Source: Siphonodentalium dalli (lineage: Eukaryota > Mollusca > Scaphopoda > Gadilida > Siphonodentaliidae). Taken from it: DNA of 64,000 bases. The stretch spans positions 157,255,152 to 157,319,151 of the forward strand of contig CP136066.1 in NCBI GenBank assembly GCA_032622095.1, written 5' to 3'. Below are positions 9,554 to 64,000 of the stretch, one piece after another. A model generated the notes under the pieces. It was not told where the DNA came from. It ran no database searches and worked only from the letters and a program-made list of their open reading frames with translations. The number at the start of each line of letters is the position of its first letter. Position 1 is the stretch's first letter. Both the position numbers and the translations under genes were made by a program.

Positions 9554-9599
9554 TCTGAAAGTCGATGGTTTCCATCAGCTGTTCTGGGAGCAGTATTGA

Positions 9600-9943: not shown

Positions 9944-10979
9944 GATTTTATCATGTCACCCACATATCATGTTTTCCGTGTGAGAATTTGAATTACTTAT
10001 ACGAAGTTCATTACCTGCCAGTAAGTAAATTTGTTGTCTATGGCTATTAACTTATGTAACGTCACAGTGACGCGTCATGGGCGTTGAACGTCAACGCATT
10101 GCATCAATGGCTAATCACCAGAAGCAGGACAACAAACTTGAGTTTAATAGTCAATTTATGAGTGTTTAGAATTTCTCAAATATATCACATGCCGGTTTTG
10201 GTATATGGTACTATGTCTTTAAATTAACAGAACTTGATTTCCGACAGATATCCCTTTTCTTGGCGCCAAAATACACCAAAAATATACCCGAGGCGGCAGA
10301 GTTCCATGAAAAACAAAATGGCGGACATCGACCCCATATGGGAACCCTGAGGGGGATATGGATTCCATATGGGACGGGCTACAAAGATGACGACCCGATG
10401 TCTCCTGATATGCCTCTACCAACGGAGCGTCCTCATTGGTCGATCCAACCAGGTGACATGATAACTGCATGTACGGTGCTGCCATCTGTGGCAACCTGGA
10501 AAGACAAGTCAGTGTTATAACAAACTGGTATATATCTGTATATATTTATATACATCAAAATGAATTTCAATATTGGTTAAAGCAACATTTGACTTGTCAT
10601 AAATAATCATTTACATTAATATTCATACAGATTTGTTTTTAATTATTTAGTTAAGTTGACGTTTAAAATAAAAATTGTATAATATATATAAATTTTACAG
10701 ATTTGATTTTAAATATTAGGTTAAGTTGATGTTCAAAATAAAATTGTATAATATATACGAGTACTAACCTTCACATTGAAGACCGTGTTGACGCGGACGA
10801 ACCTCTCTGGAACATTCTATACAATTAACATCGGAGAGAAAGTCAGACATGATTGTGAGATGAATGAAAGTGTCAATGACACTGTAGCTGAACTTGGAAA
10901 GGGAATAATTTAATGTATTACAGTCAATGGAGCGATTAGGAATGTGGAAAGTTGAATGTCTAATACTAGTTTATAGACA
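9944..10979. other. non-coding; CRE-like and small palindromic motifs
   Basis: Near 10060-10100 are TGACGTCA-like half sites (AACGTCACAGTGACGCGTCA) and the palindrome GCGTTGAACGTCAACGC, in a GC-richer setting. This could be a promoter, for example for the divergent or upstream end of the MULE-like gene, but there is no direct evidence. A frame at 10260-10520 has no recognised domain. Confidence 0.3.
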
Positions 10980-12478
10980 TGAAGAGAAAAGTAAAATCCA
11001 AGATGGCTGCTGGTGGCCATGTTTTCGGCCGAATGACCCCAAAATGATTCGTTCCCATCTACATGTCATCGTTAACATCCATGACAAATTTTATGATGAT
11101 CAGACTAAAGGTACGACCTGTAGCCCATGCTAAAGAATTTAGTCATACAAAGAGTAAAATCCAAGATGGCTGCTGGTGGCCATATTTTTTGGCCGAATGA
11201 CCCCACAATGACTCGTTCCCATCTACATGTCATTATTAACATTCATGACAAATTTTATGATGATCAGACTAAAGGTACGACCTGTAGCCCATGCTAAAGA
11301 ATTTAGTCATACAAAGAGTAAAATCCAAGTTGGCTGCTGGCGGCCATGTTTTTTGTCCGAATGACCCCAAAATGACTCGTTCCTATCTCCATTCCAATTT
11401 CAACAGCCATGACAAATTTTATGATGATCAGACTAAAGGTACGATCTGTAGCCCGTGCTAAAGGATTTAGTCATACAAAGAGAAAAATCCAAGATGGCTG
11501 CTGGCGGCCATATTATTTGGCCGAATGACCCCAAAATGACTCGTTCCCATCTACATTTCATTATTAACATTCTTGACAAATTTTATGATGATCAGACTAA
11601 AGGTACGACCTGTAGCCCATGCTAAAGAATTTAGTCATACAAAGAGTAAAATCCAAGATGGCTGCTGGTGGCCATATTTTTTGGCCGAATGACCCCACAA
11701 TGACTCGTTCCCATCTACATGTCATTATTAACATTCATGACAAATTTTATGATGATCATACTAAAGGTACGACCTGTAGCCCATGCTAAAGAATTTAGTC
11801 ATACAAAGAGTAAAATCCAAGTTGGCTGCTGGCGGCCATGTTTTTTGTCCGAATGACCCCAAAATGACTTGTTCCTATCTCCATTCCAATTTCAACAGCC
11901 ATGACAAATTTTATGATGATCAGACTAAAGGTACGATCTGTAGCCCGTGCTAAAGGATTTAGTCATACAAAGAGAAAAATCCAAGATGGCTGCTGGCGGC
12001 CATATTATTTGGCCGAATGACCCCAAAATGACTCGTTCCCATCTACATGTCATTATTAACATTCTTGACAAATTTTATGATGATCAGACTAAAAGTAGGA
12101 CCTGTAGCCCGTGCTAAAGGATTTAGTCATACAAAGAGTAAAATCCAAGATGGCTGCTGGCGACCATGTTTTTTGGCCGATTGACCCCAAAATTACTCGT
12201 TCCCATCTACATGTCATTGTTAATATCCATGACAAATTTTATGATGATCAGACTAAAGGTACGACCTGCAGCCCGTGCTAAAGAATTTAGTCATACAAAG
12301 AGTAAAATTCAAGATGGCTGCTGGCGGCCATGTTTTTTGGCCGAATGACCCCAAAATTACTCGTTCCCATCTACATGTCAATATTATCATCCATGACAAA
12401 TTTCATGATGATCAGACGAACAGTACGACCTGTGGCCCGTGCTAATGGATTAAATTTTGAAATCCAAAATGGCCACTG
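10980..12478 (+). repeat. 164-bp satellite array (array 1), about nine monomers
   Basis: Monomers begin near AAATCCAAGATGGCTGCTGG and contain CGAATGACCCC, CTCGTTCC, GATGATCAGACTAAAGG and GTGCTAAAGGATTTAGTC blocks. AGATGGCTGC-type starts at about 11001, 11164, 11328 and 11492 give a period of 163-164 bp. Monomers at 11164 and 11656 are nearly identical, so a three-monomer (492-bp) higher-order unit is duplicated. The same family occurs at 16498-18240, in the duplicated block, and in reverse at 62550-64000. It is the tandem core of a satellite-carrying mobile element (see 18255-18336). Confidence 0.9.
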
Positions 12479-13609
12479 TAGTCCAGGAGATCGACCCCAA
12501 GAAATAACAAATGTTGCTCATTTTGACGGACAAGTGCTATCCGGTCTAATTTTGTAGTAAAATATATGTAGATTACGAAAATCCATGATAGCAGTGGTGA
12601 ATTTGTAGCTTAATTGGCGAAAAACGTGTTTTTATTGACCTACCCGACGACCGAAAATGAAAGAATTTTCCGGCGACGTCATATTACTACTAGTAGTCCG
12701 GGAGCTAATATGGGTACCCTTGCACCCCCTGGGACTTAACTTCTCCAACTCATTTTGTTCCTTATTATGTCCTTCAACTTTTAAGCAATGTTAACAAGAA
12801 AAAAAAGTGGCCGTATAGACTCCAGACAAAATGGCGTCCATCATGGCCGCCGTTTTTCAGACCAGATCCTAAGTCAGTTTTATGCAAATTATAGCGGTGA
12901 AAATCTTGTAAAATGTATACAAATGTATATATTTTCGTGAAGCTAAGACATAATGTCACTTCTTTGGGGCAAAATTGAAACTCACCATCCAAGATGGCCA
13001 CCAAAATGGCTGCCGGAAGTTGAAAATATAACTTTTTTTTACAAATATCTTCTAGATCGATTCATGCTGTTTGGAACTGGTTGAGTAATGCGACTTTATT
13101 TTGTATTTTGTGTAACTGATCATTGGGGCAATTAAATATGCACTTTTTGGGTTCCAATCCCCTTCCGTTCCCTCAAAAATTCGAATTTACCGAACGCAGT
13201 ATAAAATTTCACCAAAAAATCACAATTGGGATTATAGTCATATTTTAACAAGAAATGAACAGAACTTTGCAATGTAAGTGATGCATATGATTATACCTAT
13301 GAATATTCCAACTCACTGGAACCAAAATTCTTACTTTGGTTCAAAATGGCTGCCAAAATGGCTGCCAAAATATGGAAAATGATAAATATTGCCCCAGCGT
13401 GTCCTGCAATCGATTGGCTATTCTGCCTTCTATACATTGAATACTAACATGTCTGATGTGTCATGGTTAATTGTTACTATTGTCGGCAAAAATTAACTTT
13501 TCATGTTTGGACCATTTTTGCAATTAAAATGTAACTATCTTTGAGTTGAAAGGTGTTTATTGTTTTGGTCTATATTAAATGTGTCACACTACGGGATTTA
13601 TAGACCAAA

Positions 13610-14812: not shown

Positions 14813-16494
14813 TCTATACTGTTGTTAATAAAGATACACCTTGATTAACTTCATGTTGAATGAACCAGTCACAGTATAATTTTCAATTATTGAACATTTA
14901 ACTAGAATGTCACGAATAATTGGTACATTCATGTTTTTGTTTTGACGTCGACTGTATGCATAAATCTGATTTAAATATAGTAATATATAAATAATAATTA
15001 ATGTACCGAAGCTTCGTATCTAGAGGTGACAGACACTAAATTATTTTCCATAGGCGACAGTGTTAACTAAAAGTCCCGCCGGCTATGGGTTAAGCCTATT
15101 TGAACTTCAAGTGGTAAATTTTCCCTTAGCACGTCAACCGCTGCACCAGTATGTGACAACAAACGCGCCATTTTCGGTATTTTTTTCAAACGATAATCTT
15201 ACATTTCCACAACTACCCCATTTACTGCACAAAAATCAGCAGCACAAACATATCCAGACCACTTCCGTAACTTCTGGATACCACCAGACTCTTCCTGGAC
15301 ATCTAAACATACACGATCGCTATATTTACGTAGGCTATGATTTTCTGTTCCCGATTAGGGATATTTCCCTCAATGATAATCAACCAATCAGCAGCCAGAT
15401 TGTTTTGTTATGCTGACTCGAGTTTCAAGAAGCGTAAATCTATATAATTAGTTGCTTGTAACATATAATTGTAAAGAAAATCGAACTTTGATCGTGTAAA
15501 CTGCGCCAATTTTACAAAAAAAGCTTTACTGTGTGTGATACGATAGAAATATAGAAGTCATTGGACATCCTATTATCTCCCAGTGGTCCTTTGACCCACA
15601 TACCCCGTTTTAAAATTGACCATTTTGGGAGGGGGGGGTAAGAAATAACACCGATACTCGATTCCTGATAACTCTGGAAGCACAGTTTAGTATAAAGATA
15701 CTAATGTCTCATGCCATGCTTGTTATATACATATATACTGCACAGTGTCGCATGCCCCATGTCCATCCACTCTCTAATCGGAATATTATGACCACAAATG
15801 TGACCATGCACACCCAAAATTCAGGGTTTTTCATCATAATTTAATTTGTAAAATCCGACTCGCGTGCATAACGCACAGGGTAGAAAAGCATATGTATACG
15901 TTTTGGAAACTAGTGACGTATATCTACCATACGCCTTAAGGAATTTATCTAATTTTGAACAGTACATTGTTTAATTGGATTTGAATTAGACCCCCCCCCC
16001 TCAACTTAGAAAACAAGTAGAAACCTTCTTAAATCCATTTAAAAACATTGTAGAAGCCAAGTTGTACATTATTTAACAATATTAAAATAATTATGGTGAA
16101 TTTTAACCTTAACATCATACTAAGATGAAATGGTTGCAATTTGGACGATTTTGCGTAAAAAAGAAAAAAAAATGGTAAAATATTGAAAAAAAAAAATTCA
16201 ATTCTTCAATTTTTTCAGCACAATTAGTTATTTAACATTATTAACACAATTACTATTCAACTTAATCACCAAAATCATGCTAAAATGAAATCTTTACACA
16301 TTGAACAAAAAATGAAAATTTTGGGCTTAAAATGTCGAAAAATTCCCGAAAAATCGAAAGAAAAAAAAAGAAGGCTACAAATTTGTTCTTGCTATCATGA
16401 TTTTTCTTCATTACCATACCTAAAACATTAAAAATAACATGATCGCAGCTTGTCCGTCAATATGAGCAACACTACCTCCCGATCTCCTGGACTA

Positions 16495-18254
16495 CTGGCG
16501 GCCATGTTTTTTGTCCGAATAACCCCAAAATGACTCGTTCCCATCTACATTCCAATTTCAACAGCCGTGACAAATTTTATGATGATCAGACTAAAGGTAC
16601 AACCTGTAGCCCGTGCTAAAGGATTTAGTCATACAAAGAGCAAAATCCAAGATGGCTGCTGGCAGCCATGTTATTTGGTCGAATGACCCCAAAATGACTC
16701 GTTTCCATCTACATGTCATTATTAACATTCTTGACAAATATTATGATGATCAGACTAAAAGTAGGACCTGTAGGCCGTGCTAAAGGATTTAGTCATACAA
16801 AGAGTAAAATCCAAGATGGCTGCTGGCAACCATATTTTTTGGCCGAATGACCCCAAAATTACTCGTTCCCATCTACATGTCATTGTTAATATCCATGATA
16901 AATTTTATGATGATCAGACTAAAGGTACGACCTGCAGCCCGTGCTAAATAATTTAGTCATACAAAGAGTAAAATCCAAGATGGCTGCTGGCGGCCATATT
17001 TTTTGGCCGAATGATCCCAAAATTACTCGTTCCCATCTACATGTCAATATTATCATCCATGACAAATTTCATGATGATCAGACGAACAGTACGACCTGTG
17101 GCCCGTGCTAATGGATTAAATTTTGAAATCCAAGATGGCCACTGGCGGCCATGTTTTTTGTCCGAATGACCCCAAAATGACTCGTTCCCCATCTACATTC
17201 CAATTTCAACAGCCATGTGAAAATTTTATGATGATCAGACTGAAGGTACAACCTGTAGCCCGTGCTAAAGGATTTAGTCATACAAAGAGTAAAATCCAAG
17301 ATGGCTGCTGGCGGCCATGTTTTTTGGCCGAATGACCCCAAAATGACTCGTTCCCATCTACATGTCATTATTAACATTCTTGACAAATTTCATGATGATA
17401 AGACTAAAAGTAGGACCTGCAGCCCGTGCTAAAGAATTTAGTCATACAAAGAGTAAAATCCAAGAGGGCTGCTGGCGGCCATGTTTTTTGGCCGAATGAC
17501 CCCAAAATTACTCGTTCCCATCTACATGTCAATATTATCATCCATGACAGATTTCATGATGATCAGACAAACAGTATGACCTGTGGCCCGTGCTAATGGA
17601 TTAAATTTTGAAATCCCAAGATGGCCACCAGTTGGCGGCCATGTTTTTTGTCTGAATGACCCCAAAATGACTCGTTCCCATCTACATTCCAATTTCAACA
17701 GCCATGACAAATTTTATGATGATCAGACTAAAGGTACGACATGTAGCCCGTGCTAAAGGATTTAGTCATACAAAGAGTAAAATCCAAGATGGCTGCTGGC
17801 GGCCTTGTTTTTGGGCCGAATGACCCCAAAATGACTCGTTCCCATCTACATGTCATTATTAACATTCTTGACAAATTTTATGATGAACAGACTAAAAGTA
17901 GGACCTGTAGCCCGTGCTAAAGAATTTAGTCATACAAAGAGTAAAATCTAAGATGGCTGCCGGCGGCCATGTTTTTTGGCCAAATGACCCCAAAATTACT
18001 CGTTCCCATCTACATGTCAATATTAACATCCATGACAAATTTCATGACAATAAGACAAACAGTACAGCCTGTAGCCCGTGCTAATGGATTGAATTTTGAA
18101 ATCCAAAATGGCCGCTGGCGGCCATGTTTTTCGGCCGAATGACCCCAAAATGACTCGTTCCCATCTACATGTCGATGTCAACATCCATGACAAATTTCAT
18201 AATAATCGGACCAAAGGTACGAACTGTAGCCTGTGCTAAAGGAAATTGTTGACG
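16495..18254 (+). repeat. 164-bp satellite array 2
   Basis: About ten further monomers continue the satellite beyond the 4.0-kb insertion. Variants alternate: some end GGATTTAGTCATACAAAGAGTAAA, others GGATTAAATTTTGAAATCC. That indicates at least two monomer subtypes. The array ends near 18240 where the GTGCTAAAGGA block runs into a short (ACGC)n stretch. Confidence 0.9.
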
Positions 18255-18336: not shown

Positions 18337-19910
18337 ATGATGAAATGATGGGGGATCTCATGTTACTTATAGGATTCCAACAAAAACAACTCACGAAAAG
18401 GTGTGATCAAGAAGCCAGGTGGTAATTAGTGGTAATCAGTAAGAGCTGACCTCTTGTTTATACAGCGCGATTAGTATTAACACTTGTTGTAAAAAGATCT
18501 CATAAAATCTTTCCCGCAGTCAATCAGATGAATACTATTGTCAGCGTGATTGTTATTCACATTCGATGTAAGCAAATCTCATAAGATCTTTCGCCGCATT
18601 CCAAAACATGAATAATTATACATACAAAATATAAATATATATATAAAATACCGTGTTTTCCACATTTCCAACACACGGTACGAAACGACCAATTGATTTT
18701 CTACATGGTACGAAACGACCAAAGAATGCGGTACGAAACGACCAAAAAATATGGCACGAAACGACCAGATGGTACGAAACGACCAAGTACGAAAAGACCA
18801 CAGTACGAAACGCATGTAAGGCTGTATTCTTATTCAACCAATACTTTGAAAACAAAAATTTATTCTGATTTCTTTTTTAAACTAATGAGACACGGAATAA
18901 TTATTTGGTATTTACTGTGAATATTCAATACATGTATAAATATGTAGTGATGTACAAATCTTCAAACAGACAAAATTTCAATATACTCTAAATTCTATTA
19001 TAGTGATATTTGACTATAACTTATTCATGTTCCTTTATTTGTGTCGGGAATAGAAGACGGCGCATACCAGTGCACAGCCAAATGTCACTCATAACAATAT
19101 CGCAGGGTGATACCCTCATATATCCCGTTCTAAATGGCAATTGCAGGATGACTCAATCGCTCCTTCATAACAATATTTCAACTAATTACATGCTAATTGA
19201 GTTGCTTATCGTGTGCCGTCATGATTAATAATTATCCTGGACAAACTATATGCATGGTATCGAGTTAGTGCGATCTGATTTTGAATAATATTTGTGTAAT
19301 TATGATTTTGGATTATCCCTCTTTTATCAAATTAACAAAACCGTAACGGTAATGGTCAAATACCACTATAATAGTGGAATATCGCTATAATAGTGGAATT
19401 CAGCCGGGATGTGCCTGACCTGCTTACAACAGTGAGCACTGTGTCAGGATGACCAATCAATCTTATTTAGGCTCTAATTTCAGCATTATTCATTTATAAC
19501 TTTATTGACATATTGTTGTTTGTTGTCGACTGTAAGTTGTATTGTAACACTAACAGTTACAGTTGTTTACAAAAATATAATTATACTGAGCATTGCCTTG
19601 TTTAGATTTCTTAAGTTAATGTACTCATGAGTCATATTCTACATGGAGAAAAACCTTTACTAACCTTCTCTTCTCCTTTGTTCCTTTACCCTTCTGTGTC
19701 ATTTTCTTATATTCTTTATTTCATGTTGATAAAACGTCAAAATTCCGAGTGAGTTTAAACAATTTCAGAATTTTATTTCGTCACACCGGGGGAAATCTAT
19801 TTTGTAACTGCTCTTCCCTGAAGTGAAGGTCGATTGACGCAAATTTGCAAGACTTTCAAAACAGTATATTAATTGAGAATTCTATGAATATGCAGACAAT
19901 ATTTGGCAAA
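18337..19910. other. non-coding tail of duplicated block, with minisatellite (copy 1)
   Basis: At 18677-18811 six to seven copies of a GGTACGAAACGACCA unit (18-21 bp) occur. Near 19361-19396 there are two copies of CTATAATAGTGGAAT. The remainder (18820-19906) is AT-rich without repeats or coding signals and is the only apparently single-copy DNA inside the 8.3-kb block. Confidence 0.6.
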
Positions 19911-20808
19911 TTTTATGATGATCAGACTAAAGGTACGACCTGTAGCCCATGCTAAAGAATTTAGTCATACAAAGAGTAAAATCCAAGATGGCTGCTGGTG
20001 GCCATATTTTTTGGCCGAATGACCCCACAATGACTCGTTCCCATCTACATGTCATTATTAACATTCATGACAAATTTTATGATGATCATACTAAAGGTAC
20101 GACCTGTAGCCCATGCTAAAGAATTTAGTCATACAAAGAGTAAAATCCAAGTTGGCTGCTGGCGGCCATGTTTTTTGTCCGAATGACCCCAAAATGACTT
20201 GTTCCTATCTCCATTCCAGTTTCAACAGCCATGACAAATTTTATGATGATCAGACTAAAGGTACGATCTGTAGCCCGTGCTAAAGGATTTAGTCATACAA
20301 AGAGAAAAATCCAAGATGGCTGCTGGCGGCCATATTATTTGGCCGAATGACCCCAAAATGACTCGTTCCCATCTACATGTCATTATTAACATTCTTGACA
20401 AATTTTATGATGATCAGACTAAAAGTAGGACCTGTAGCCCGTGCTAAAGGATTTAGTCATACAAAGAGTAAAATCCAAGATGGCTGCTGGCGACCATGTT
20501 TTTTGGCCGATTGACCCCAAAATTACTCGTTCCCATCTACATGTCATTGTTAATATCCATGACAAATTTTATGATGATCAGACTAAAGGTACGACCTGCA
20601 GCCCGTGCTAAAGAATTTAGTCATACAAAGAGTAAAATTCAAGATGGCTGCTGGCGGCCATGTTTTTTGGCCGAATGACCCCAAAATTACTCGTTCCCAT
20701 CTACATGTCAATATTATCATCCATGACAAATTTCATGATGATCAGACGAACAGTACGACCTGTGGCCCGTGCTAATGGATTAAATTTTGAAATCCAAAAT
20801 GGCCACTG
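19911..20808 (+). repeat. 164-bp satellite array 1, copy 2
   Basis: Counterpart of 11581-12478, about five and a half monomers, starting abruptly inside a monomer at the duplication junction. It ends at the CTG target duplication of the 4.0-kb insertion. Confidence 0.9.
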
Positions 20809-21939
20809 TAGTCCAGGAGATCGACCCCAAGAAATAACAAATGTTGCTCATTTTGACGGACAAGTGCTATCCGGTCTAATTTTGTAGTAAAATATATGTA
20901 GATTACGAAAATCCATGATAGCAGTGGTGAATTTGTAGCTTAATTGGCGAAAAACGTGTTTTTATTGACCTACCCGACGACCGAAAATGAAAGAATTTTC
21001 CGGCGACGTCATATTACTACTAGTAGTCCGGGAGCTAATATGGGTACCCTTGCACCCCCTGGGACTTAACTTCTCCAACTCATTTTGTTCCTTATTATGT
21101 CCTTCAACTTTTAAGCAATGTTAACAAGAAAAAAAAGTGGCCGTATAGACTCCAGACAAAATGGCGTCCATCATGGCCGCCGTTTTTCAGACCAGATCCT
21201 AAGTCAGTTTTATGCAAATTATAGCGGTGAAAATCTTGTAAAATGTATACAAATGTATATATTTTCGTGAAGCTAAGACATAATGTCACTTCTTTGGGGC
21301 AAAATTGAAACTCACCATCCAAGATGGCCACCAAAATGGCTGCCGGAAGTTGAAAATATAACTTTTTTTTACAAATATCTTCTAGATCGATTCATGCTGT
21401 TTGGAACTGGTTGAGTAATGCGACTTTATTTTGTATTTTGTGTAACTGATCATTGGGGCAATTAAATATGCACTTTTTGGGTTCCAATCCCCTTCCGTTC
21501 CCTCAAAAATTCGAATTTACCGAACGCAGTATAAAATTTCACCAAAAAATCACAATTGGGATTATAGTCATATTTTAACAAGAAATGAACAGAACTTTGC
21601 AATGTAAGTGATGCATATGATTATACCTATGAATATTCCAACTCACTGGAACCAAAATTCTTACTTTGGTTCAAAATGGCTGCCAAAATGGCTGCCAAAA
21701 TATGGAAAATGATAAATATTGCCCCAGCGTGTCCTGCAATCGATTGGCTATTCTGCCTTCTATACATTGAATACTAACATGTCTGATGTGTCATGGTTAA
21801 TTGTTACTATTGTCGGCAAAAATTAACTTTTCATGTTTGGACCATTTTTGCAATTAAAATGTAACTATCTTTGAGTTGAAAGGTGTTTATTGTTTTGGTC
21901 TATATTAAATGTGTCACACTACGGGATTTATAGACCAAA

Positions 21940-23139: not shown

Positions 23140-24823
23140 TCTATACTGTTGTTAATAAAGATACACCTTGATTAACTTCATGTTGAATGAACCAGTCACA
23201 GTATAATTTTCAATTATTGAACATTTAACTAGAATGTCACGAATAATTGGTACATTCATGTTTTTGTTTTGACGTCGACTGTATGCATAAATCTGATTTA
23301 AATATAGTAATATATAAATAATAATTAATGTACCGAAGCTTCGTATCTAGAGGTGACAGACACTAAATTATTTTCCATAGGCGACAGTGTTAACTAAAAG
23401 TCCCGCCGGCTATGGGTTAAGCCTATTTGAACTTCAAGTGGTAAATTTTCCCTTAGCACGTCAACCGCTGCACCAGTATGTGACAACAAACGCGCCATTT
23501 TCGGTATTTTTTTCAAACGATAATCTTACATTTCCACAACTACCCCATTTACTGCACAAAAATCAGCAGCACAAACATATCCAGACCACTTCCGTAACTT
23601 CTGGATACCACCAGACTCTTCCTGGACATCTAAACATACACGATCGCTATATTTACGTAGGCTATGATTTTCTGTTCCCGATTAGGGATATTTCCCTCAA
23701 TGATAATCAACCAATCAGCAGCCAGATTGTTTTGTTATGCTGACTCGAGTTTCAAGAAGCGTAAATCTATATAATTAGTTGCTTGTAACATATAATTGTA
23801 AAGAAAATCGAACTTTGATCGTGTAAACTGCGCCAATTTTACAAAAAAAGCTTTACTGTGTGTGATACGATAGAAATATAGAAGTCATTGGACATCCTAT
23901 TATCTCCCAGTGGTCCTTTGACCCACATACCCCGTTTTAAAATTGACCATTTTGGGAGGGGGGGGTAAGAAATAACACCGATACTCGATTCCTGATAACT
24001 CTGGAAGCACAGTTTAGTATAAAGATACTAATGTCTCATGCCATGCTTGTTATATACATATATACTGCACAGTGTCGCATGCCCCATGTCCATCCACTCT
24101 CTAATCGGAATATTATGACCACAAATGTGACCATGCACACCCAAAATTCAGGGTTTTTCATCATAATTTAATTTGTAAAATCCGACTCGCGTGCATAACG
24201 CACAGGGTAGAAAAGCATATGTATACGTTTTGGAAACTAGTGACGTATATCTACCATACGCCTTAAGGAATTTATCTAATTTTGAACAGTACATTGTTTA
24301 ATTGGATTTGAATTAGACCCCCCCCCCTCAACTTAGAAAACAAGTAGAAACCTTCTTAAATCCATTTAAAAACATTGTAGAAGCCAAGTTGTACATTATT
24401 TAACAATATTAAAATAATTATGGTGAATTTTAACCTTAACATCATACTAAGATGAAATGGTTGCAATTTGGACGATTTTGCGTAAAAAAGAAAAAAAAAT
24501 GGTAAAATATTGAAAAAAAAAAACATTCAATTCTTCAATTTTTTCAGCACAATTAGTTATTTAACATTATTAACACAATTACTATTCAACTTAATCACCA
24601 AAATCATGCTAAAATGAAATCTTTACACATTGAACAAAAAATGAAAATTTTGGGCTTAAAATGTCGAAAAATTCCCGAAAAATCGAAAGAAAAAAAAAGA
24701 AGGCTACAAATTTGTTCTTGCTATCATGATTTTTCTTCATTACCATACCTAAAACATTAAAAATAACATGATCGCAGCTTGTCCGTCAATATGAGCAACA
24801 CTACCTCCCGATCTCCTGGACTA

Positions 24824-26665
24824 CTGGCGGCCATGTTTTTTGTCCGAATAACCCCAAAATGACTCGTTCCCATCTACATTCCAATTTCAACAGCCGTGAC
24901 AAATTTTATGATGATCAGACTAAAGGTACGACCTGTAGCCCGTGCTAAAGGATTTAGTCATACAAAGAGCAAAATCCAAGATGGCTGCTGGCAGCCATGT
25001 TATTTGGTCGAATGACCCCAAAATGACTCGTTTCCATCTACATGTCATTATTAACATTCTTGACAAATATTATGATGATCAGACTAAAAGTAGGACCTGT
25101 AGGCCGTGCTAAAGGATTTAGTCATACAAAGAGTAAAATCCAAGATGGCTGCTGGCAACCATATTTTTTGGCCGAATGACCCCAAAATTACTCGTTCCCA
25201 TCTACATGTCATTGTTAATATCCATGATAAATTTTATGATGATCAGACTAAAGGTACGACCTGCAGCCCGTGCTAAAGAATTTAGTCATACAAAGAGTAA
25301 AATCCAAGATGGCTGCTGGCGGCCATATTTTTTGGCCGAATGATCCCAAAATTACTCGTTCCCATCTACATGTCAATATTATCATCCATGACAAATTTCA
25401 TGATGATCAGACGAACAGTACGACCTGTGGCCCGTGCTAATGGATTAAATTTTGAAATCCAAGATGGCCACTGGCGGCCATGTTTTTTGTCCAAATGACC
25501 CCAAAATGACTCGTTCCCCATCTACATTCCAATTTCAACAGCCATGTGAAAATTTTATGATGATCAGACTGAAGGTACAACCTGTAGCCCGTGCTAAAGG
25601 ATTTAGTCATACAAAGAGTAAAATCCAAGATGGCTGCTGGCGGCCATGTTTTTTGGCCGAATGACCCCAAAATGACTCGTTCCCATCTACATGTCATTAT
25701 TAACATTCTTGACAAATTTCATGATGATAAGACTAAAAGTAGGACCTGCAGCCCGTGCTAAAGAATTTAGTCATACAAAGAGTAAAATCCAAGAGGGCTG
25801 CTGGCGGCCATGTTTTTTGGCCGAATGACCCCAAAATTACTCGTTCCCATCTACATGTCAATATTATCATCCATGACAGATTTCATGATGATCAGACAAA
25901 CAGTATGACCTGTGGCCCGTGCTAATGGATTAAATTTTGAAATCCCAAGATGGCCACCAGTTGGCGGCCATGTTTTTTGTCTGAATGACCCCAAAATGAC
26001 TCGTTCCCATCTACATTCCAATTTCAACAGCCATGACAAATTTTATGATGATCAGACTAAAGGTACGACATGTAGCCCGTGCTAAAGGATTTAGTCATAC
26101 AAAGAGTAAAATCCAAGATGGCTGCTGGCGGCCTTGTTTTTGGGCCGAATGACCCCAAAATGACTCGTTCCCATCTACATGTCATTATTAACATTCTTGA
26201 CAAATTTTATGATGAACAGACTAAAAGTAGGACCTGTAGCCCGTGCTAAAGAATTTAGTCATACAAAGAGTAAAATCTAAGATGGCTGCCGGCGGCCATG
26301 TTTTTTGGCCAAATGACCCCAAAATTACTCGTTCCCATCTACATGTCAATATTAACATCCATGACAAATTTCATGACAATAAGACAAACAGTACAGCCTG
26401 TAGCCCGTGCTAATGGATTGAATTTTGAAATCCAAAATGGCCGCTGGCGGCCATGTTTTTCGGCCGAATGACCCCAAAATGACTCGTTCCCATCTACATG
26501 TCGATGTCAACATCCATGACAAATTTCATAATAATCGGACCAAAGGTACGAACTGTAGCCTGTGCTAAAGGAAATTGTTGACGAATCACGCACACACACG
26601 CACACACGCATGACGGATACCAAGCCATGGCAATAGCTCAAACTTTACAAAGTAAAGTTGAGCTA
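24824..26665 (+). repeat. 164-bp satellite array 2 and terminal hairpin, copy 2
   Basis: Counterpart of 16495-18336. The terminal hairpin lies at 26634-26665. Differences from copy 1 are single bases (24930, 25278 and 25493). Confidence 0.9.
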
Positions 26666-31223: not shown

Positions 31224-34200
31224 ATGGGGATTAGTCTGACACAGTATCGCATTTGCATTGGAACCCATGACTTTTCTAAATGCGGCCCAACTGTCATGAT
31301 ATATCGATACACACAGTGCTTATCGCTCAATTATAACACAATTCTATTCCTTGCTGCACTAACCCTGATCATGTCATCTGATATACATGAAAATCCTGGA
31401 CCGGGACAAAATATAGTGACAGAAAGCACCCTTTCAGTTTTTCACTATAATATTCGTAGTATTCGTTTCAAACTTTCTAAAATAGTGGACATAGCGATTT
31501 TGACGTACTGTGTTTTACGGAAACACATCTGGACCGCGTCTTCCCCTCATCTGAAATTTTGATTGACGGATACCACACTCCAATCAGGAACGACCGCGAT
31601 TCGTATGGTGGTGGGATATGCACGTACTTCTCAAACCAGATAGTATATGAGCGTATAACCAAATTAGAATTTGACGAATCTATCATGTGGTTTAAAATCA
31701 TTTCAAATAAACTAAGCTATTTCCGTGCAGTTACATATAGGTCTGCCCAATTCTGCGCGCCAAATTATTGGGACTTGCTGGAAACGTCACTCGAAGATGC
31801 AATAAAGACATCAAATGCCGTAATTCTTGTAGGAGATGTAAACTCCAACTCCCTTGATAACTCGTCAGATATTAGTGTAATGTTAACCCGCCTCACGATG
31901 CGAAACCTCATCAAAGACCCCACTCGTGTTTCAACTACAAGTCAAACGATTATAGATCCTATCCTAGTAACTGACGGAATAATTACCCACGATTCTGGCA
32001 TCATTAATCCTGGTGTGTCTGACCACTATGCAACTTACGCCTCACTCGCATTGGACTATTGCACAAGACCGTGCTTTGAACGAACAGTGTGGAACTACAC
32101 GAATGCCGATTTTAAACAGGCATCGCATCTTCTTTCTAACGAAAGTTGGAATGAAATATTGAACTGTACAAATGCCAACGATTCTGTAAAACTTTTTACC
32201 GACAAGTTTCTCATAATAATGAAACAAAATATACCTAATCGGCGCGTCCTAATTAGACCCAACGATAAATACTGGTTTAATTCTGAAATAAGAAAACAAA
32301 TCAGAAAACGGGACAGATTGCGGAAAAAGGCAATTCGAACCGGGACATCCGAGGATTGGGCTGCGTTCAAAAAAGTGCGAAATAAAATAAATAACATGAA
32401 AAAATATTACAAAGCAGAATTTGAAAAAAATTTACAGGAAAATTAAAAAATTGCTGATTCGCCTAGATATTTCTGGAAAATGGTTAATAACATCCTTGGC
32501 AGAACGAAATCAAATTTGATACCCCCACTTAGAACGCCTATAAATAGGTTACAATGCAACTTAGTAGTAGATGACTATCTCAAATCAAACCTACTGAATG
32601 ATACATTTGTCGATAATTCTTCATTGCCACATATCAAACCAATTCTTCCGCATCTTATAATACCAGAAACAACTATTTCCGAAATAAAAATTGAAATTGC
32701 AGACATACTAGAAGCCATTGATTCTTTAAAGTTAAACAAAGCCCATGGACATGACGGAATAAGCCCACGTATGTTAAAAGAAACAAAGGCTGTCATTGCA
32801 AACCCCCTGAAAATTATTTTTGAAAAATCCCTAAGAGATGGCATTTTCCCAGATGACTGGAAAAAAGCTAACGTAATACCTGTCCACAAAAAAGACGATC
32901 GATCTGATCCTGGAAATTATAGACCAATTTCCCTACTCCCCGCCATTGCAAAAGTCTTTGAGAAAATATTACTTAAACACCTTTTGAAATTTATTAGAGA
33001 TAATGATAAATTGTACGAATTCCAATCAGGCTTTCTCCCTGGCCACTCGACTACATACCAACTCTTAGAATTATATCACTCCCTCTGTCAGTCTCTCGAG
33101 GAGAATCTTTATACATGTGCTGTTTTTTGTGATATTTCCAAGGCCTTCGAGAGAGTCTGGCACGAGGGATTGATATTTAAATTGAAACGTTGTGGTGTCA
33201 CAGGGTCACTGATTAAACTCATAGAAAATTATCTGTCTAACAGGAAACAACGAGTATTAGTAAATAGCAAATTTTCAGATTACAAAACCATTAATGCAGG
33301 AGTTCCCCAAGGTTAAATTATTGGACCTTTCCTATTCTTGGTATACATAAATGATCTATCTGAAACCCTCCATTCTTTCGCACGACTATATGCCGACGAC
33401 ACATGCCTCACGGAATCGAATATAAGTGTTCTCGATCTTGAAAGAGAGATGAATCGTGATCTAATAAAAAATGACTCATGGTCTAATCAATGGTTAGTTA
33501 AATTTAACGGTACTAAGACTAAGTCTGTTACCTTTTCATATTCAGGAAATCACCCCAATATAGCTCTCTCACTAAACGGTAACAGTATAAGTCAAGTAGA
33601 GTCTTATAAACATCTCGGGTTATTCATTCAAAGTGATATGGACTGGAACCGACAAATTGATGAAATGTTGAAGAAGCTTTACGGACGCCTCGCTTACTTG
33701 AGAAAGTTGAAGTTTATGCTTAATCGAAACACACTGGAAATAATATACCGATCATATATACTGCCCCTTATGGACTACGCCGATGTAGTCTGGGACTCGG
33801 CCTCTGCAAACCTTTTGATCAAGTTAGACAGAGTACACGCCGATGCTGCCGGTTTAATCACTGGACTTACCCGATCAGTCCCACAAGATAAACTATTATG
33901 CGAATTAGGTTGGAGAACATTGACGGACAGACGAAAATATCACAGATTGCATACCATGTATAGGATAGTAAACCATAAAACCCCAAGCTATTTGACTGAT
34001 CTCTTGCCAACCCGCCCAGAAACGACCAATAGATTAAGAAACAATATCCCTTTCCCGCCATATCAATGGGGGACTAAACATTTTAATAATTCATTCTTCC
34101 CGCGATCAACTAAGGACTGGAACGAACTCCCCAAAGAAGTAAGAACTAGTTGCTCACTAAACGTTTTCAAAACAAAATTAGCATCAACAAATATAGTACT

Positions 34201-34558
34201 GAAACCTCCTGATCATTTCAATATAGGAAAACGACGACTGAACATAATCCACTGTAAGCTCCGTAACTTATGTAGCGACCTAAATGCTGACAAATTTTGC
34301 AACTTTATTAGTGACAATCCAAGTTGCCGATGTGGACATCCAGTTGAAGATGCAAGTCATTATTTCTTTAATTGCGGGCTGTACACACGTCATAGAATTA
34401 CTCTAGCAAATAATTTAACAGGTTTAGGTATGTCAAATATCACTGTCGGAAAGCTACTTATTGGTGAGATCTCACTAAATGACAATTTAAATAGAAAGTT
34501 ATTCAATTTTGTTCAAACTTACATAACTTCAACCTGCCGTTTTGACATCAGCGACTAG
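31224..34558 (+). pseudogene. LINE polyprotein (2A-like leader, endonuclease, reverse transcriptase), broken
   Basis: Frame one (31224-31562) gives a hydrophobic leader, the 2A-like DIHENPGP (31380-31403) and the endonuclease start FHYNIRS. A one-base frameshift near 31491 moves the reading to the frame used onward from there (CFTETHLD, GDVNSN, SDHYATY). In-frame TAA stops lie at 32444-32446 and at 33314-33316, the latter in the RT motif GVPQG just where Ser is usual. RT motifs include NKAHGHDGIS, NYRPISLLPA, FCDISKAFERVWH and LYADDT. The C-terminus has CRCGHPVEDASHYFFNC, a Cys/His motif common in this group. The catalytic YADD is intact. The element normally reverse-transcribes its RNA at a nicked target. 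This copy cannot make the full protein. Confidence 0.9.
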
Positions 34559-41935: not shown

Positions 41936-42369
41936 CGGCTTACCTATTTCAGAGGAATCGACGGAAAGTACCGATGTTTCCGATTGGCCCGCACCATTAT
42001 CTTTCTGGTGGTGGTGTTGTTGGTGTGACGACGTAGTATAGAGGAGCGGCCAAATCCAAAAAGGGCCTTAGTTTTCGAGATACCCCTACCCTCGGTAGAA
42101 CAAGTTGAAACCAACTTTTTCTAGAAGGTAAACATATACAAGAAAACCATAGTCAGAAATGGTAACGCCACCAAGATCGTATTATTAGCCATAAATATAA
42201 ATAATAATACAATTATTCTATAAACTAGCTTTCAAATTTTATGCGGGAAATTTGCGTACTTCCATATTTCAAGTTTTCCCGTTTCTCGTGGCATACATTA
42301 CTTTCATCAAACTGTCTTCTTTATTACACAAGCTGATAGGCCCGACTTCACCCGGGCTGTTTCCCATCT

Positions 42370-42900
42370 GCTTTCCGGTGAAAGGTGCGATTTGACCTTC
42401 AATTGACTATTTCGAAAGTCAAGGTCAGGTCAGGGTCATGATTTGTCCAGTCCAAAACACCCCCACCCGTAGAAAACTACCCATAGGTATCAAATTTCGT
42501 CGAAATCCGTCCGTTTTACCCAACTTGACCTTTAATTAACAATTTTGAAGGTCAAGGTAAGGTCAGAGTCATGATTTGACCCGTCCAAAACACCCCCCCC
42601 CCCGACAAAAGTACCCATAGGTATCAAATTTCGTCGAAATCTATCCGTTTTATCCGAGTTGACCTTTGATTGGCCATATTGAAGGTCAAGGTCAGGCCGA
42701 GGTCACGATTTGACCCGTTCAAAACTCTCCTCGGACCAAAGTATCCCTAGGTATCAAATTTCGCCGAAATTTGTCCGTTTTACCCAAATTGACCTTGCAT
42801 TGACAGTTTTAATGGTCAAGGTCAGGTCGGAGTCACGATTTGACCCGTTCAAAACACTTCCCGGACACAAATACCCATAAGTATCAAATTACGTTGAATT
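42370..42900 (+). repeat. tandem array, about 132-bp unit (GGTCAAGGTCAGGTC)
   Basis: Four units start near GACCTT at 42394, 42529, 42661 and 42791. Each holds AAGGTCAAGGTCAGGTC, GATTTGACCCGT.CAAAAC, TACCCATAGGTATCAAATTTC and TCGAAAT..GTCCGTTTTACC. The same family is present in reverse at 61555-62160. Non-coding. Confidence 0.85.
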
Positions 42901-43315
42901 CTATGGAAAGCCGAGGAGGACATGTTGGTTGCTAATTGCTAGATATACGACGCGGTATTTTGAAGGTGTTTCAAACTAGGAGATAGAAGTATTCTGCCTT
43001 TCAAATGGTGATGAATTATAGTAGTTTATTCAAATTTTATGGCATAAATTGTTAATAAAACCGTATATACTATAAAAAATTAATGACTCGAAAATTAAGT
43101 GGGCCTTTAAACAAAGTCACAATTGCATTTAGGCTCATCTCATACTCGTCCATTCAGCGATATTCTACTGCGCAGTTTGTTATAGCCTCCAGTATTTATT
43201 GAGCGTTATACCCCCAACTGTTATAATTCGCCTTTAGCAGGCGTACTCTTGCCTCAGATTATTGAGATATTAGGTCACACATAATCACATTAAATCGCAT
43301 CGTAACATAGCAATT

Positions 43316-44110
43316 GTGTGGGCTCCTTGGCGTGAATATGTAATGAGAAATAAGGTCATACGTAATGACATTAAACTCAAGAAAACCCTCGAAAACAAAA
43401 CAAAATCACATTTAATGTTTTACGTTATTTCCTTCATAAAAAGAATCTTCGTGATAATGAACCCTCTCGTTACTTTAGAATATAGAATTAACCTTAAAAT
43501 AAAAAAAATCTTTGGAACACAGAACCTTCGGAATAACGAACCTTCGGATTGGTGAACCTTCGGAATAGCGAACATTCAGAGAAATTTCGGAATAGTGGAC
43601 CTTCGGGATAGTGAACCTTCGGAATAGAGACATGCCCCCCAATATTCATATTATATGCCCAGAGTTCAAAGGTATGGACCCATAAAATTCTAAACTTGGC
43701 CCTTAAAATATTGAACTCCAAATTGGAGCACACCACTTAAGTCAACTGAACCTATGTCATGTCCCAATGCGGGAGGGTCCATATATACCACAACATTCAT
43801 AGTATATGCCAAGAATTCAAAGGTATGGGCCCACGTAATGACATAAAATCTCAAGAAAACCAGCGAAAACAAAACAAAATCACATTTAATGTTCTAAGTT
43901 AAGTTATTTCCTCCTGTATCTGTATCGGTGTGCGCGCATGATCAGTTCGGATGTGAGCGCACACTCCATATAAAGAATCTTTGTGAAAATGAACCCTCTC
44001 AAATTAGTCTCAATACTTTAAAATATAGAATTAACCTAAAAATAACAAAAACCTTCGGAATAGAGAACCTTCGGAATAGCGGACCTTCGGGATAGCAAAC
44101 CTTCATAATA
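43316..44110 (+). repeat. duplicated segment carrying ACCTTCGGAATA minisatellite
   Basis: The block CTCAAGAAAACC..CGAAAACAAAACAAAATCACATTTAATGTT occurs at about 43376 and 43851. Each is followed by AATATAGAATTAACCTxAAAATAA and then by copies of a GAACCTTCGGAATAG unit (43513-43626 and 44050-44108). Two direct copies, about 475 bp apart. Confidence 0.7.
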
Positions 44111-44304
44111 GAAGCATGTCCCCACAATTACACCGGTGACGTAAACACATGTGCCAATCTTAGTTGTACTCTCGTAATTATCGGTACGATGAAACGGTGA
44201 CGGAATCTGACGAGGTTTGCCGAATGTACAATCACCCAGTGAATTATCGATCGACCATGCGATATCAAAAAACCAAAAGCTAGAAACACCACACTACGGT
44301 GGCG

Positions 44305-45720
44305 TAATAATTTATGAAAATGATTCTTGGCCTTACCGGAATTGGTGGCAGCTATGTATGGTAAGACTATTTGTGAAGGTACCCTACCGAAAAATTAGCC
44401 TGTCTGTTTTCAGCGGTTGACCAGCTATACACCATTGGTTAAAAGTTAATCACATCACCAAAAACAGAACGTTCTATTTGTTATTATGGGGTACATGGTG
44501 ATACTAGATTGGAATGTTGTTATTTGTTTCTGGTTTGTTTGAGATTTCACGACGTAATGGTGGAGAATGTAACGTTCTGCGTCAAAAAATCATGACGATT
44601 CAGATAAAATGTCGCTCGTCAACTCTGTACAAAACTAGCACGCTGGATTGAGCTTATCTTGTCATATATGTTTGGAAAGACTGGAATAGGTTCTACCCGG
44701 AGGTATTAAATTTATTTTCCTGATCATACAAATATTGCAATAATAGGCAAAAACTTAACCCTCCCCAATCTCATAAAATGCTAAGTATAGCCATCGGCTG
44801 GGATTATATACCAGAATGATAGAATAGCGCGTAGTATTTCCTTTTATTTAGTGTAGAACACACATAACAAGTGTAAGATGCGAATTTCCAACCATATGTA
44901 CTATTAGAAGAGTATCTAAATCCAAGATGGCGTCCAATGTGGCATTCAGTTTTTATATTAAGACTAAGTGAAGCGACATATGAAAAATCCAGAAAAGGAA
45001 CGTCCCCAGTGGTAAAATGTATATTATTTTAATGACCATATAGAATAGCATTTCATATGAAACATTAGTTTTACCAATAATACATCTTATCAATAGGTAA
45101 AATAATAGTCAAAAAATTATTCCGCCAGTCAATGTCATAAAATTCGAACTAAAGTTGTCGCCTGGATTGGAACCACGAATGATCGCATAATGCGCAGTAT
45201 TTTGTTTTATTTAATGTAGAATACACATGAAAATTGACCAGAGAAAATTGCCATCCATATTTGTCATTAGAAGAGTATCATAATCCAAGATGGCGTTCAA
45301 TATGGCGGCCAATTTTAATTTTAAAACTTAGTGAACGACATACGACAAATACAGAAAAGGAACGTCCCCAGTGGTATGTTATATATAATTTTACTAACTA
45401 CATAGAATATTTCATATCAAACATTAGATTCAGCATTAATCCATATTATCACTTGATGAAATAATTAGACAAAAAACTTAACCACCCCTACAGTCACAAA
45501 CTTCCACACAAATGGGCCGCTGGGGATTGTAGTACAGGCCAAAAAGAAATGAGCATACATTTTTGATTTCATTTGTGCTGAATACGATAAAGAAACAAAA
45601 GTTTGTAGTCACGCCCACTATTGTGCCATAATGGCGGCCAACGTGGCAGTTAAGTTTAATGTCAACACTTTGTGAACAACTAATACGATATGCGGGCAAA
45701 GAACGTCTCATATGGTATTA
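44305..45720 (+). repeat. left inner arm of the foldback element, about 360-bp units
   Basis: Pairs in reverse with 48040-49330: TTGGTGGCAGCTATGTATGG, AAAATTAGCCTG, TGTTTGGAAAGACTGGA and GGAACGTCCCCAGTGG are all mirrored. TAATGTAGAA.ACACAT-type blocks at about 44850 and 45210 mark the unit repeat. A third unit is degenerate near 45578. Each unit includes CCAAGATGGCG.CCAATATGG. Confidence 0.8.
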
Positions 45721-48039
45721 CTTATGCGATGTATTAGCTAGAATGTGTGTTTCCATTATTAAATGGCAATCAACATATATGTTATCTTCATAAATATGAG
45801 CAACAGTTGCTTTTATCAATCATAAAAACTACATGGCTCTGATAGCCAACCATTCAATTAACGTTCAGTGACTAAAGGCCAAACATGACTCCAGTGACGA
45901 CATGTTCATAGAAACATAGAGACAGATGGATATGAGAAATACATTTATAATTCCCACATTTTCATTGAATATGAGTCATACAATGTGAACCTATGCATTT
46001 ACAGCAATGGACACTTGAGCATGGCATGTCCAGTTTTTCTTGAGAAACGCAAAGGACCCTACTGGGTGAACAAGAACATAACACTATATGCCAGTGATTT
46101 TGGTTGATTACATCACCCTGATTTACACTCATTTACTTGTATCCCCCTAAAACACTAGATCAACGACGAAGGTGTTATGAATCCCGATCAGCAACACTGA
46201 TATGAGGTCCATGTTAAGTGAAAATAACTTTCGAATATCTGTGCCAGTTTGGGGATAGGTGGTTTATGTGTGGACTGAGTATATTGATTCCGCGGTAAGA
46301 TCGGCGCTGTCTTTCCGCCACCCATAAGAATACAATGTATGTTGTGATATGGCCTAGTCGCCATAGACCAAACCATAAACACAATTTGATTATCTATATA
46401 TCAAGACTAATGACTAGTGTTTATTGTGAATTGCCTTATGCCTGTCTCCATTTCAATTGTGTTTATATTTGCTACTAGCCTACAGTTTTTCATTACTTAC
46501 CATTTTATCCATTTCAAATGCCACCTGACTCAAAAGAACCGTGGACAAAACAACTTTTTTAGTGACATTCTGGTTTGCTAGTGAGTTGCGTGATTATGAA
46601 TATAATCTAACGGCAATCATAAATGGAACACTAGCGTGCATGTTCAGTGAGATTATCGCACTATCACATATGTATCAATAAAATGTATTAGCATGAGAGA
46701 TATTACTACACATGTAGTCCGGACCCACGTCCCTAAGAACTAATACAGATATGATATCCACCAGAGATATAGAAGATTCAATTTCATTAGTCTAGCCAGG
46801 GAACTCAATATCTTCTGTTTGTAACATATATGAATCCGATTGACATTCACAACAATTTAACTAACATATTAGTCGAGACTAAAATATCAATGAACGGAAA
46901 AACATGCACATCAAGCAACATATGGCGAGAACAACTTATATGCATAGGTATGCGGTGTTATTCTCTTATTTCACACTGAGCCGACACTCGGACGATTATA
47001 CAAACCAGCAACCTCTAGATCACTATAACGCATATTTATAACCTATTTTACGCTGATTGCATTATATGGACATCGTGTTATGCCATTAAAGAGCATTGTG
47101 TGTGTGTGCGATGATGACTTCCGTGTTACGTTAATCAATGTAGTTACTATGATGTGTGAACTTTGATTGCTCGTGGACTCATATCCCACTTTCCCAAAAC
47201 CAGAGATCGATTAGATATCTTATTTGCTGTATTTCAAAACGTATGCCATTTTTGTCTTTTGCGTTACTGCATATAACAACAGTTAGTGATTCTGTTATTA
47301 ATGTTTCATTTGGCCAAAACTATTGCAAGGCCTTCTGAAAATGTTGGTGGAAATTCAAAAGGACATGTTAAGGAGGACTGCACATTCAAGACTATCACAA
47401 TATATTAATAGTGATATGATAGTCATATGGTAGTATTGAACATTACAACATCACTTCGTATCGCATCGAGTGCATGATTATTTGTAACGGTTAATGACCA
47501 TCCTCTATTATTACCAGTTGTCTACATATTGTTAATGCGCACTTACTTAACGTCTCAAAATGACATAAAATTGTCAAACAATAGTCAAAATGCGCACTGG
47601 AGATCGATACACGATGCACGATTCAGCAAATTAAACTATTTAAGTCATTCTCGGAATTTCGCTAAGTGTTTTTTTATTTTGGTTGGTTTGTCTTTCTCCA
47701 AATATTTGATATAAAGTTCCTTATAATTGCTAAACAATACAACCTAAACATTCAACAAATGCAAATTTCCATCCAGTATTAATCCTTGCGTCATAGCTAA
47801 GGGTCTGACAGTTGGAACGTGATGCAGGATACTACCAAACCAATGGCAACATGAAAGACACGGTTTACCCGCCCGTAGGGAGCTGATCGACAGTTTATTA
47901 AGTTTATTTGAGACAGTCATGTCAAAGGTTTATCTGAAAAAAATGTTGTCTTACCACCATCACTCAAACATAACATTTCGACGTCTAATATAAACACACA
48001 CTCGAAACAGTATATCGCTTCAAACTGCCGATTGATACA
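45721..48039. other. unpaired centre of the foldback element, no gene
   Basis: About 2.3 kb between the inner arms. Open frames are under 65 codons and show no transposase motif. No tandem structure was noticed. The element therefore appears non-autonomous in this copy. Confidence 0.55.
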
Positions 48040-49330
48040 TTTTGACCGGCTTTCGTATTCATTGTTCGCAACGTGTTGACATTATAATTAGACGTCATGT
48101 TGGATTTTGGTTGTCTCCTAAGACCAGACGTGGATGCAAATTTGACATTTTATGTTTCTTCGTTGTATTCAACGCAAAGTAATTCCTAACGATTTGCTTA
48201 ATTCTTTGCATTCTGGACTATAGCCACAAGTGCCGCCATTATGTGGACGTTTGTGACTGGGTGGTGGTTAAGTTTTTGTTTACTAATTCTCCAACTGATA
48301 AGATGGACTAATGGTGAAACTACTGTTCCATATGAAATATCGTCTATGTAGTCACTTCAATGATATACAATGCCACAGGGGATGTCCCCTTTATAGTTCG
48401 TCCGTATGTACGTTCGCTAAGTGGTACAATTAAAATTGGACGCCACGTTGGACGCCGTCTTGTAGTTTCATTCTCTTCTAATAGTGAATATTGATGGAAA
48501 TTCACACCTGTCACTTCATATGTGTGTTCTGCATTAAATAAAACAAAATACTGCGCATCATGCTATCATTCGTGTTTCCAATCCCAGGCGATAACTTTAT
48601 TTCAAATTTTATGACATGGGATGGAGGGATAAATTTTTACCTATTATTTTACCAATTGAAAAGATGTATTAATGGTCAAATTAATGTTTGATATGGAATG
48701 TTATTCTATGTAGTCATTACAATAATATAGATTTTACCACTGGGGACGTTCCTTTTCTTGATTTTTCGTATGTCACTTCACAAAGTCTTAAAATAAAAAC
48801 TGACCGCCATATTGGACGCCATCTTGGATTTTGATACTCTTCTAATAGTGAATATTGTTGGAAATTCCCATTTTACACTTGTTATGTGTGTTCTACATTT
48901 AATAAAATCAAATACTACGCACTATTCTATCATTCTGGGATCCAATCCACGGCGATGGCTATACTCAGCATTTTATGACATTGGGGGAGGGTTAAGTTTT
49001 TGCCTATTATTGCAAGATTGGTAGGGACAGGATAATAAAGTTCATACCGCCTGGTAGAAAATACTCCAGTCTTTCCAAACATATATGATGTGATAAGCTA
49101 CGTCGAGCGTGCTAGTTTTGTACAGAGTTAACGGGCGACAGTTTATCTGAATCGTCATTATTGTTTGATGCAGAACGTTACATTCTCTACCATGACGTCG
49201 TGAAATCTCTTTTAACCAATTGTGTATAGCTGGTCAACCGCTGAAAACAGGCTAATTTTTCGGTAGGGTACCTTCACAAATAGTCTTACCATACATAGCT
49301 GCCACCAATTCCGGCAAGGCCAAGAATCAT
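48040..49330 (-). repeat. right inner arm of the foldback element, about 360-bp units
   Basis: Reverse complement of 44305-45720 with moderate divergence. TATGTGTGTTCT.CATT.AATAAAA begins at about 48519 and 48881 (period 362). The arms differ by many substitutions, so the inversion is not recent. Confidence 0.8.
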
Positions 49331-49530
49331 TTTCATAAATGATATGGATTTACCTTCCAGACAAAGTTGGTTTCAACTTGTTCTACCGAGGGTAGGGGTA
49401 TCCGACCACTTTTGGAATTTGGCCGCTCCTCTATAGTGTGACGACGTATGTATACCGGTATATTATGACAACTATTTTGTAAATAGATCATATATGTTCG
49501 TAAACTCTTATTTCATGATTGAGTCATAAA

Positions 49531-62486: not shown

Positions 62487-64000
62487 TCATTAGCTCAACT
62501 TTACTTTGTAAAGTTTGAGCTATTGCCATGGCTTTGTCGTGCGTGTGTGTGCGTAAGGCGTCAACAATACAGGCTACAGGGCGTACCTTTGATCGGATCA
62601 TTATGAAATTTGTCATAGCTGTTGACATCAACATTTGTACCGGAATGATTCATTTTGGGGTTATTCGGAAAAAAAACATGGCCGCCAGCGGCCATCTTAG
62701 ATTTCAAAATTCAATCCATTAGCACGGGCTACAGGCCGTACTGTTCGTCTGATCGTCATGAAATTTGTCATGGATGTTAACAATGACATGTAGATGAGAA
62801 CGAGTCATTTTGGGTTATTCGGGCAAAAAACATGGCCGCCAGCAGCCATCTTGGATTTTACTCTTTGTATGACTAAATCCTTTAGCACGGGCTGCAGGTC
62901 GTACCTTTAGTCTGATCATCATGAAATTTGTCATGGCTGTTAAAATTGGAATGTAGATGGGAACGAGTCATTTTGGGGTCATTCGGACAAAAAACATGGC
63001 CGCCAGTGGCCATCTTTGTTTTCAAAATTCAATCCATTAGCACGGGCCACAGCATTGTTCGTCTGATCATCATGAAATTTGTCATGGATTTTAATATTGA
63101 CATGTAGATGGGAACGAGTAATTTTGGGTTCATTCGGCCCAAAAACATGGCCGCCAGCAGCCATCTTGGATTTTACTCTTTGTATGACTAAATCCTTTAG
63201 CACGGGCTACAGGTCGTACCATTAGTCTGATCATCATAAAATTTGTCATGGATGTTAACAATGACATATAGATTGGAACGAGTCATTTTGGGGTCATTCG
63301 GCCAAAAAACATGGCTGCCAGCAGCCGTCTTGGATTTTACTCTTTGTATGACTAAATCCTTTAGCACGGGCTACAGGTCGTACCTTTAGTCTGATCATCA
63401 TAAAATCTGTCCTGAATGTTAATAATGACATGTAGATGGGAACGAGTCATTTTGGGGTCATTCGGCCAAAAAACATGGCCACCAGCAGCCATCTTGGATT
63501 TTACTCTTTGTATGGCTAAATCCTTTAGCACGGACTACAGGTCGTACCTTTAGTCTGATCATCATAAAATTTGTCATGGATGTTGAAATTGGAATGTAGA
63601 TGGGAACGAGTAATTTTGGGTTCATTCGGCCCAAAAACATGGCCGCCAGCAGCCATCTTGGATTTTACTCTTTGTATGACTAAATCCTTTAGCACGGGCT
63701 ACAGGTCGTACCTTTAGTCTGATCATCATAAAATTTGTCATGGATGTTAACAATGACATGTAGATTGGAACGAGTCATTTTGGGGTCATTCGGCCAAAAA
63801 ACATGGCTGCCAGCAGCCGTCTTGAATTTTACTCTTTGTATGACTAAATCCTTTAGCACGGGCTACAGGTCGTACCTTTAGTCTGATCATCATAAAATTT
63901 GTCCTGAATGTTAATAATGACATGTAGATTGGAACGAGTCATTTTGGGGTCATTCGGCCAAAAAACATGGCCACCAGCAGCCATCTTGGATTTTACTCTT
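62487..64000 (-). repeat. 164-bp satellite element, reverse orientation, open at window end
   Basis: Opens with the terminal hairpin TAGCTCAACTTTAC / GTAAAGTTTGAGCTA (about 62488-62520), GCCATGGC and a GTGTGTGTGCG run, then about nine monomers in reverse (CATGGCCGCCAGC.GCCATCTTGG, GATTTTACTCTTTGTATGAC). Monomers are more diverged from those at 11-18 kb than the latter are from each other, so this is an independent copy. The array continues past 64000. Confidence 0.9.

Follow-up and report, generated by a model that had tools for sequence, protein, structure and literature searches.

A 7395-bp sequence in the genome of the scaphopod Siphonodentalium dalli belongs to a family that recurs across the genome, has defined boundaries, and is typically flanked by 3-bp duplications. 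We read it, with a probability of about 0.9, as one copy of a multicopy, non-autonomous, foldback-like DNA transposon that inserts by cut-and-paste in trans, duplicating 3 (or sometimes 4) bp of its target. Long inverted arms with tandem subunits surround a middle region, the copies are dispersed between duplicated targets, and the element contains no transposase, all of which are features of foldback-like elements. That it is non-autonomous and must be mobilized in trans is well supported, and the family is apparently undescribed. In the proposed mechanism, a transposase supplied in trans would recognize the tips (TAGAGGAGCGGCC...) and the element would be inserted by cut-and-paste with a staggered cut of 3 bp, sometimes 4 bp. 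We infer both the cut-and-paste step and an enzyme acting in trans, because a transposase has not been linked to the family. The copy lies within the window (the whole stretch of 64,000 nucleotides that was analyzed, C6:157255152-157319151), and the genome surveyed comprises 2.23 Gb in 9 contigs.

Boundaries and arms of the window copy

An earlier note, made from the window sequence, had placed the element at 42023-49448. When loci carrying the left tip are compared, their common sequence starts at TAGAGGAGCGGCC, and the bases outside it vary by copy. Thus, the window element spans 42039-49433 (+ strand; tip to tip TAGAGG...CCTCTA), which includes a nested insertion; the parent element minus this insertion measures ~5.24 kb. 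The inverted tips are present as described, and they are the sole two matches in the window. Specifically, the 15-bp tip was found exactly twice with no mismatch (0.43 occurrences expected with up to three mismatches, based on dinucleotide-preserving shuffles), and so was TGTGACGACGTA (0.17 expected with up to one mismatch, from shuffles of the same kind). A search of the window against Rfam gave no match.

The left terminal inverted repeat tip (42039-42141, + strand, ~100 bp) is of the left variant and shares 96%-98% identity with other left ends. The remainder of the left arm (44301-45700, + strand) consists of units of ~362 bp, delineated by inverted repeats I1-I11, with unit spacings of 361 and 346 bp. 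It is followed by a central region (45701-48040) without recognizable coding capacity, then by the right arm (48041-49433, − strand), which consists of inverted repeats with units of ~364 bp and carries at its end the right-tip variant. The left and right ends are distinct variants, the left continuing as AAATCCAAAAAGGGCCTTAGTTTTCGAGATACCCC and the right as AAAT(G/T)CCAAAAGTGGTCGGATACCCC.

Long inner arms built from units of about 360 bp had been reported in the earlier note, and this description holds: the arms exceed 1 kb (~1.4 kb without the insertion), the ~362-bp units recur within them, and their inverted complementarity is 74%-98%. Complementarity over hundreds of bases, reaching 98%, leaves no room for chance. 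The number of units differs among copies. Most left arms have two copies of the unit motif in their first 1.5 kb, and right arms have one (16 loci), two (six loci), or three (one locus). Within the window copy, the left and right arms diverge locally by as much as a quarter, whereas among other copies left arms are mostly 88%-96% alike and right arms mostly 84%-97%. Given that same-side arms agree across copies, the arms had probably become asymmetric before the family spread.

The composite appearance of the left arm has another origin, as the normal arm is split by a nested sequence of ~2.16 kb (~42140-44300, edges uncertain by a few bases). The passage from tip to arm (..GGTAAACATATATAATTTATGAAAATG..) is unbroken in other copies and interrupted at this point in the window copy. 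The nested sequence comprises 130-bp and 16-bp tandem arrays, has a possible ATA duplication at its edges, and gave no Pfam match in any of the six frames. As the continuity of the other copies shows, this second sequence entered the left arm of the window copy later.

Other features of the window can be noted. Arrays of 164-bp tandem units occur at 10858-12529, 16403-18168, 19828-20859, and 24732-26437, and in inverted orientation at 63056-64000 (at least 32 copies of the unit, 90%-99% alike in part). Two of these arrays recur, with their surroundings, at a spacing of ~8.3 kb, which suggests a duplicated segment. An open frame of 250 amino acids with a FLYWCH zinc finger (8822-9574, − strand) is possibly part of a Mutator-like transposase, and a LINE-type retrotransposon with nearly intact successive open frames and a reverse transcriptase domain lies at 31481-34558 (+ strand).

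Dispersed copies and their target duplications

A genome search with the tips, of the kind the earlier note had proposed, finds them at hundreds of places: there are 170 exact matches to the left 29-mer and 232 matches to the right 35-mer with up to two mismatches, and reversed control tips have none in the same genome. Among the matches listed, 43 left/right pairs lie in the correct orientation within 20 kb of each other, most of them 5.1-5.7 kb apart. It should be noted that the counts of pairs and of duplications refer to the matches listed, out of ~400 ends, and that the copies were read in pieces. One pair is only 384 bp long, and a deletion derivative of the family of ~600 bp (L068, 1501-2101) has an AAA duplication on both sides. 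Tips that have only the first 13 nt in common occur at nine places; seven of these are the same family, and the two on C8 are part of a local array unrelated to it.

Both flanks were read for 41 copies (window copy excluded). Directly at the tips, an exact duplication of 3 bp is present in 37 of the 41 and of 4 bp in two, and two have none. This pattern is stable across the two sets that were read, with 28 of the first 30 pairs having exactly 3 bp (the others being one of 4 bp, TACT, and one without), and nine of a further 11 having 3 bp (plus one of 4 bp, TGTT, and one without). Mispaired flanks, used as a control, agree at 3 bp in 9.4% of cases and at 4 bp in 1.5%. Three sets of two pairs (L150/L152, L101/L156, and L103/L192) have flanks in common and represent duplicated loci, so that ~38 insertions are independent. 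For one insertion (L164/L165, GAG), paralogous empty sites confirm the 3-bp duplication: the same flanking repeat, uninterrupted by the element, is present at other loci, where GAG occurs once (five spanning matches, three alignments). None of the 41 has a direct repeat of >8 bp within 25 bp of its tips. The consistent 12- to 14-bp flanking duplication by which the earlier note had proposed to judge the family is absent, and a consistent 3 bp is found instead. The first 29 duplications are A+T-rich (84%, vs. 63% in the flanks).

In some cases, copies of the family share their surroundings. Three copies (L010, L011, and L015; C9:108657955, C8:64465531, and C5:127923475) have a common outer flank, and a repeat flanking them is also found beside L029 and L049; the element may have travelled as a passenger of a different repeat or of a larger duplicated segment. 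Also, three right tips on C8 (134200198, 134202821, and 134205444) follow one another on one strand at intervals of exactly 2623 bp, in a tandem array that includes a piece of the element and is a possible emerging satellite.

The core and comparison with known transposons

The earlier note had found no transposase in the centre, and indeed six-frame translation of the 2.3-kb core gave no match to Pfam; its longest stop-to-stop frame is 78 amino acids. Short samples were taken from 24 other pairs, ten of them 8-11 kb long and two ~13.5 kb long. The core is matched by 21 of the samples, one (C5:123454861) aligns in register with the right arm, and two (L173 and L175) have no match. No transposase was seen in these samples, and they revealed no longer copy with a coding centre, which the earlier note had suggested looking for. 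The extra length of the longer pairs is nested insertion; for example, the 13.5-kb pair at C4:268906858 has a 133-amino-acid open frame inside a nested insertion, again without a Pfam match. Thus, the proposal of an undescribed family mobilized in trans stands as regards a non-autonomous, foldback-like element with hundreds of tips, dispersed insertions with duplicated targets, and a shared core with no recognizable coding capacity in nearly all samples, but not as regards a 13-bp duplication.

Several known groups can be set aside on their termini or duplications. CACTA (EnSpm) elements have tips that start with CACTA or CACTG, and the tips here start with TAGAGG. PIF/Harbinger elements duplicate TWA. 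Pangu and NuwaI, the groups placed with PIF/Harbinger as PHIS, likewise make 3-bp duplications of fixed composition, ANT and CWG, respectively (PMC4482050). The 29 duplications are not confined to these motifs (TWA in six, ANT in one, CWG in none), and this composition speaks against all three. In parabasalids, a single family of IS481EU makes duplications of ~4, 15, and 24-25 bp, with tips of the form TNT..AYA or TGT..ACA (PMC10045372). Here, the tips are TAG..CTA and the duplications are 3-4 bp in 39 of 41 copies, with no long ones, so neither the tips nor the duplication lengths place the family in IS481EU.

Among foldback transposons, the closest compared is Tetris of Drosophila virilis, in which an outer domain is followed by a variable number of ~220-bp tandem subunits, the middle is noncoding, the source of the transposase is unknown, and the duplications are 8-10 bp (PMC4079207). 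By description, the arm architecture and the noncoding middle are alike, whereas the subunit here is ~362 bp and the duplication 3-4 bp. Membership in Tetris itself was rejected, as its 8- to 10-bp duplications are not seen in a family in which 37 of 41 copies have 3 bp. Galileo, a foldback-like member of the P superfamily in Drosophila, makes 7-bp duplications and has transposase-bearing relatives. Its inverted arms are likewise long and in some cases include internal tandem repeats, and many of its copies are non-autonomous (PMC4079207, in part). The long arms are shared with the present family, but the duplication here is 3 bp and no transposase-bearing relative was found.

Two superfamilies resemble the family in duplication length. 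Zator makes 3-bp duplications (PMC10045372), as here, and the ISAzo13-type transposase domain (PF07592) had no match in the genome, although a model of bacterial type may miss an animal Zator. The other is the AcademX lineage of the Academ superfamily, which has duplications of 3 or 4 bp (PMC10045372), a range that fits the 39 of 41 copies with 3-4 bp. The family might therefore belong to AcademX and be mobilized by an Academ transposase, a placement that we treat as a lead only and consider rather unlikely. Duplication length alone is weak evidence, and no Academ protein or other transposase was found on elements with these tips. There are only seven XPG_I matches genome-wide, none of them tied to the tips, and thus an abundant nuclease-bearing family is not suggested, although diverged domains can be missed.

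The 13-bp repeat at the window copy

The 13-bp direct repeat, GTGTGACGACGTA, that the earlier note had taken for a target duplication does exist on both sides of the window copy, at 42023-42035 and 49436-49448 (both + strand). However, it is separated from the tips by 3 nt (GTA) on the left and 2 nt (TA) on the right, giving ..GGTGTGACGACGTAGTA[TAGAGG..CCTCTA]TAGTGTGACGACGTATG.. as the flanking sequence. Directly at the tips, the flanks of the window copy have only TA in common and lack a 3-bp match. Because GTA and TA separate the tips from the repeats, a simple 13-bp stagger does not account for the arrangement.

When the left and right flanks of the window copy are joined and searched against the genome, both prove to belong to other repeats. 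Locus L121 can be aligned over the junction and has there a GAT-rich tract and, after it, a single TGACGACGTA; L122 and L126 are similar. These alignments place the window insertion inside another repeat, within a cryptic trinucleotide tract. Elsewhere in the genome there is no close pair of GACGACGTA, so a preexisting tandem duplication is without precedent. Either a tandem duplication of 13-16 bp, private to this tract, was already there, or insertion or repair made one. The 13-bp repeat is a peculiarity of the window copy, distinct from the target duplication of the family; it most likely arose by local duplication within the trinucleotide tract or through an atypical event of insertion or repair.

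One could argue instead that the 13 bp are a genuine target duplication, in a family that usually makes 3-4 bp and occasionally about a helical turn more. The arithmetic agrees (3 plus ~10 bp gives the observed 13 bp), IS481EU provides a precedent (PMC10045372), the paralogs of the window flank have a single TGACGACGTA, the close pair of GACGACGTA is unique to this site in the genome, and the window copy is without a 3-bp duplication. Set against this, flanking repeats of >8 bp are found in none of the 41 other copies, the bases between repeats and tips are unexplained by a simple staggered cut, and the site is a cryptic simple-sequence tract of the kind prone to slippage. On balance, we consider this very improbable, and slightly more so its specific form, in which a normally 3-bp family would now and then make a 13-bp stagger with a few extra bases between duplication and tip. 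As for the suggestion of the earlier note that this is an undescribed family with a normal duplication of ~13 bp, the two 13-mers in the window are what favor it, and with 3 bp in 37 of the 41 other copies, 12-14 bp in none, and empty sites that confirm 3 bp, we give it almost no credence.

Reading the repeat as a local peculiarity carries a more general caution, in that a target duplication read from one copy in simple-sequence DNA can mislead. What the analysis contributes is a foldback-like family with clear boundaries, 3-bp duplications, and some hundreds of copies. Its long inverted arms, which vary in subunit number, could give rise to satellite DNA and to rearrangements.
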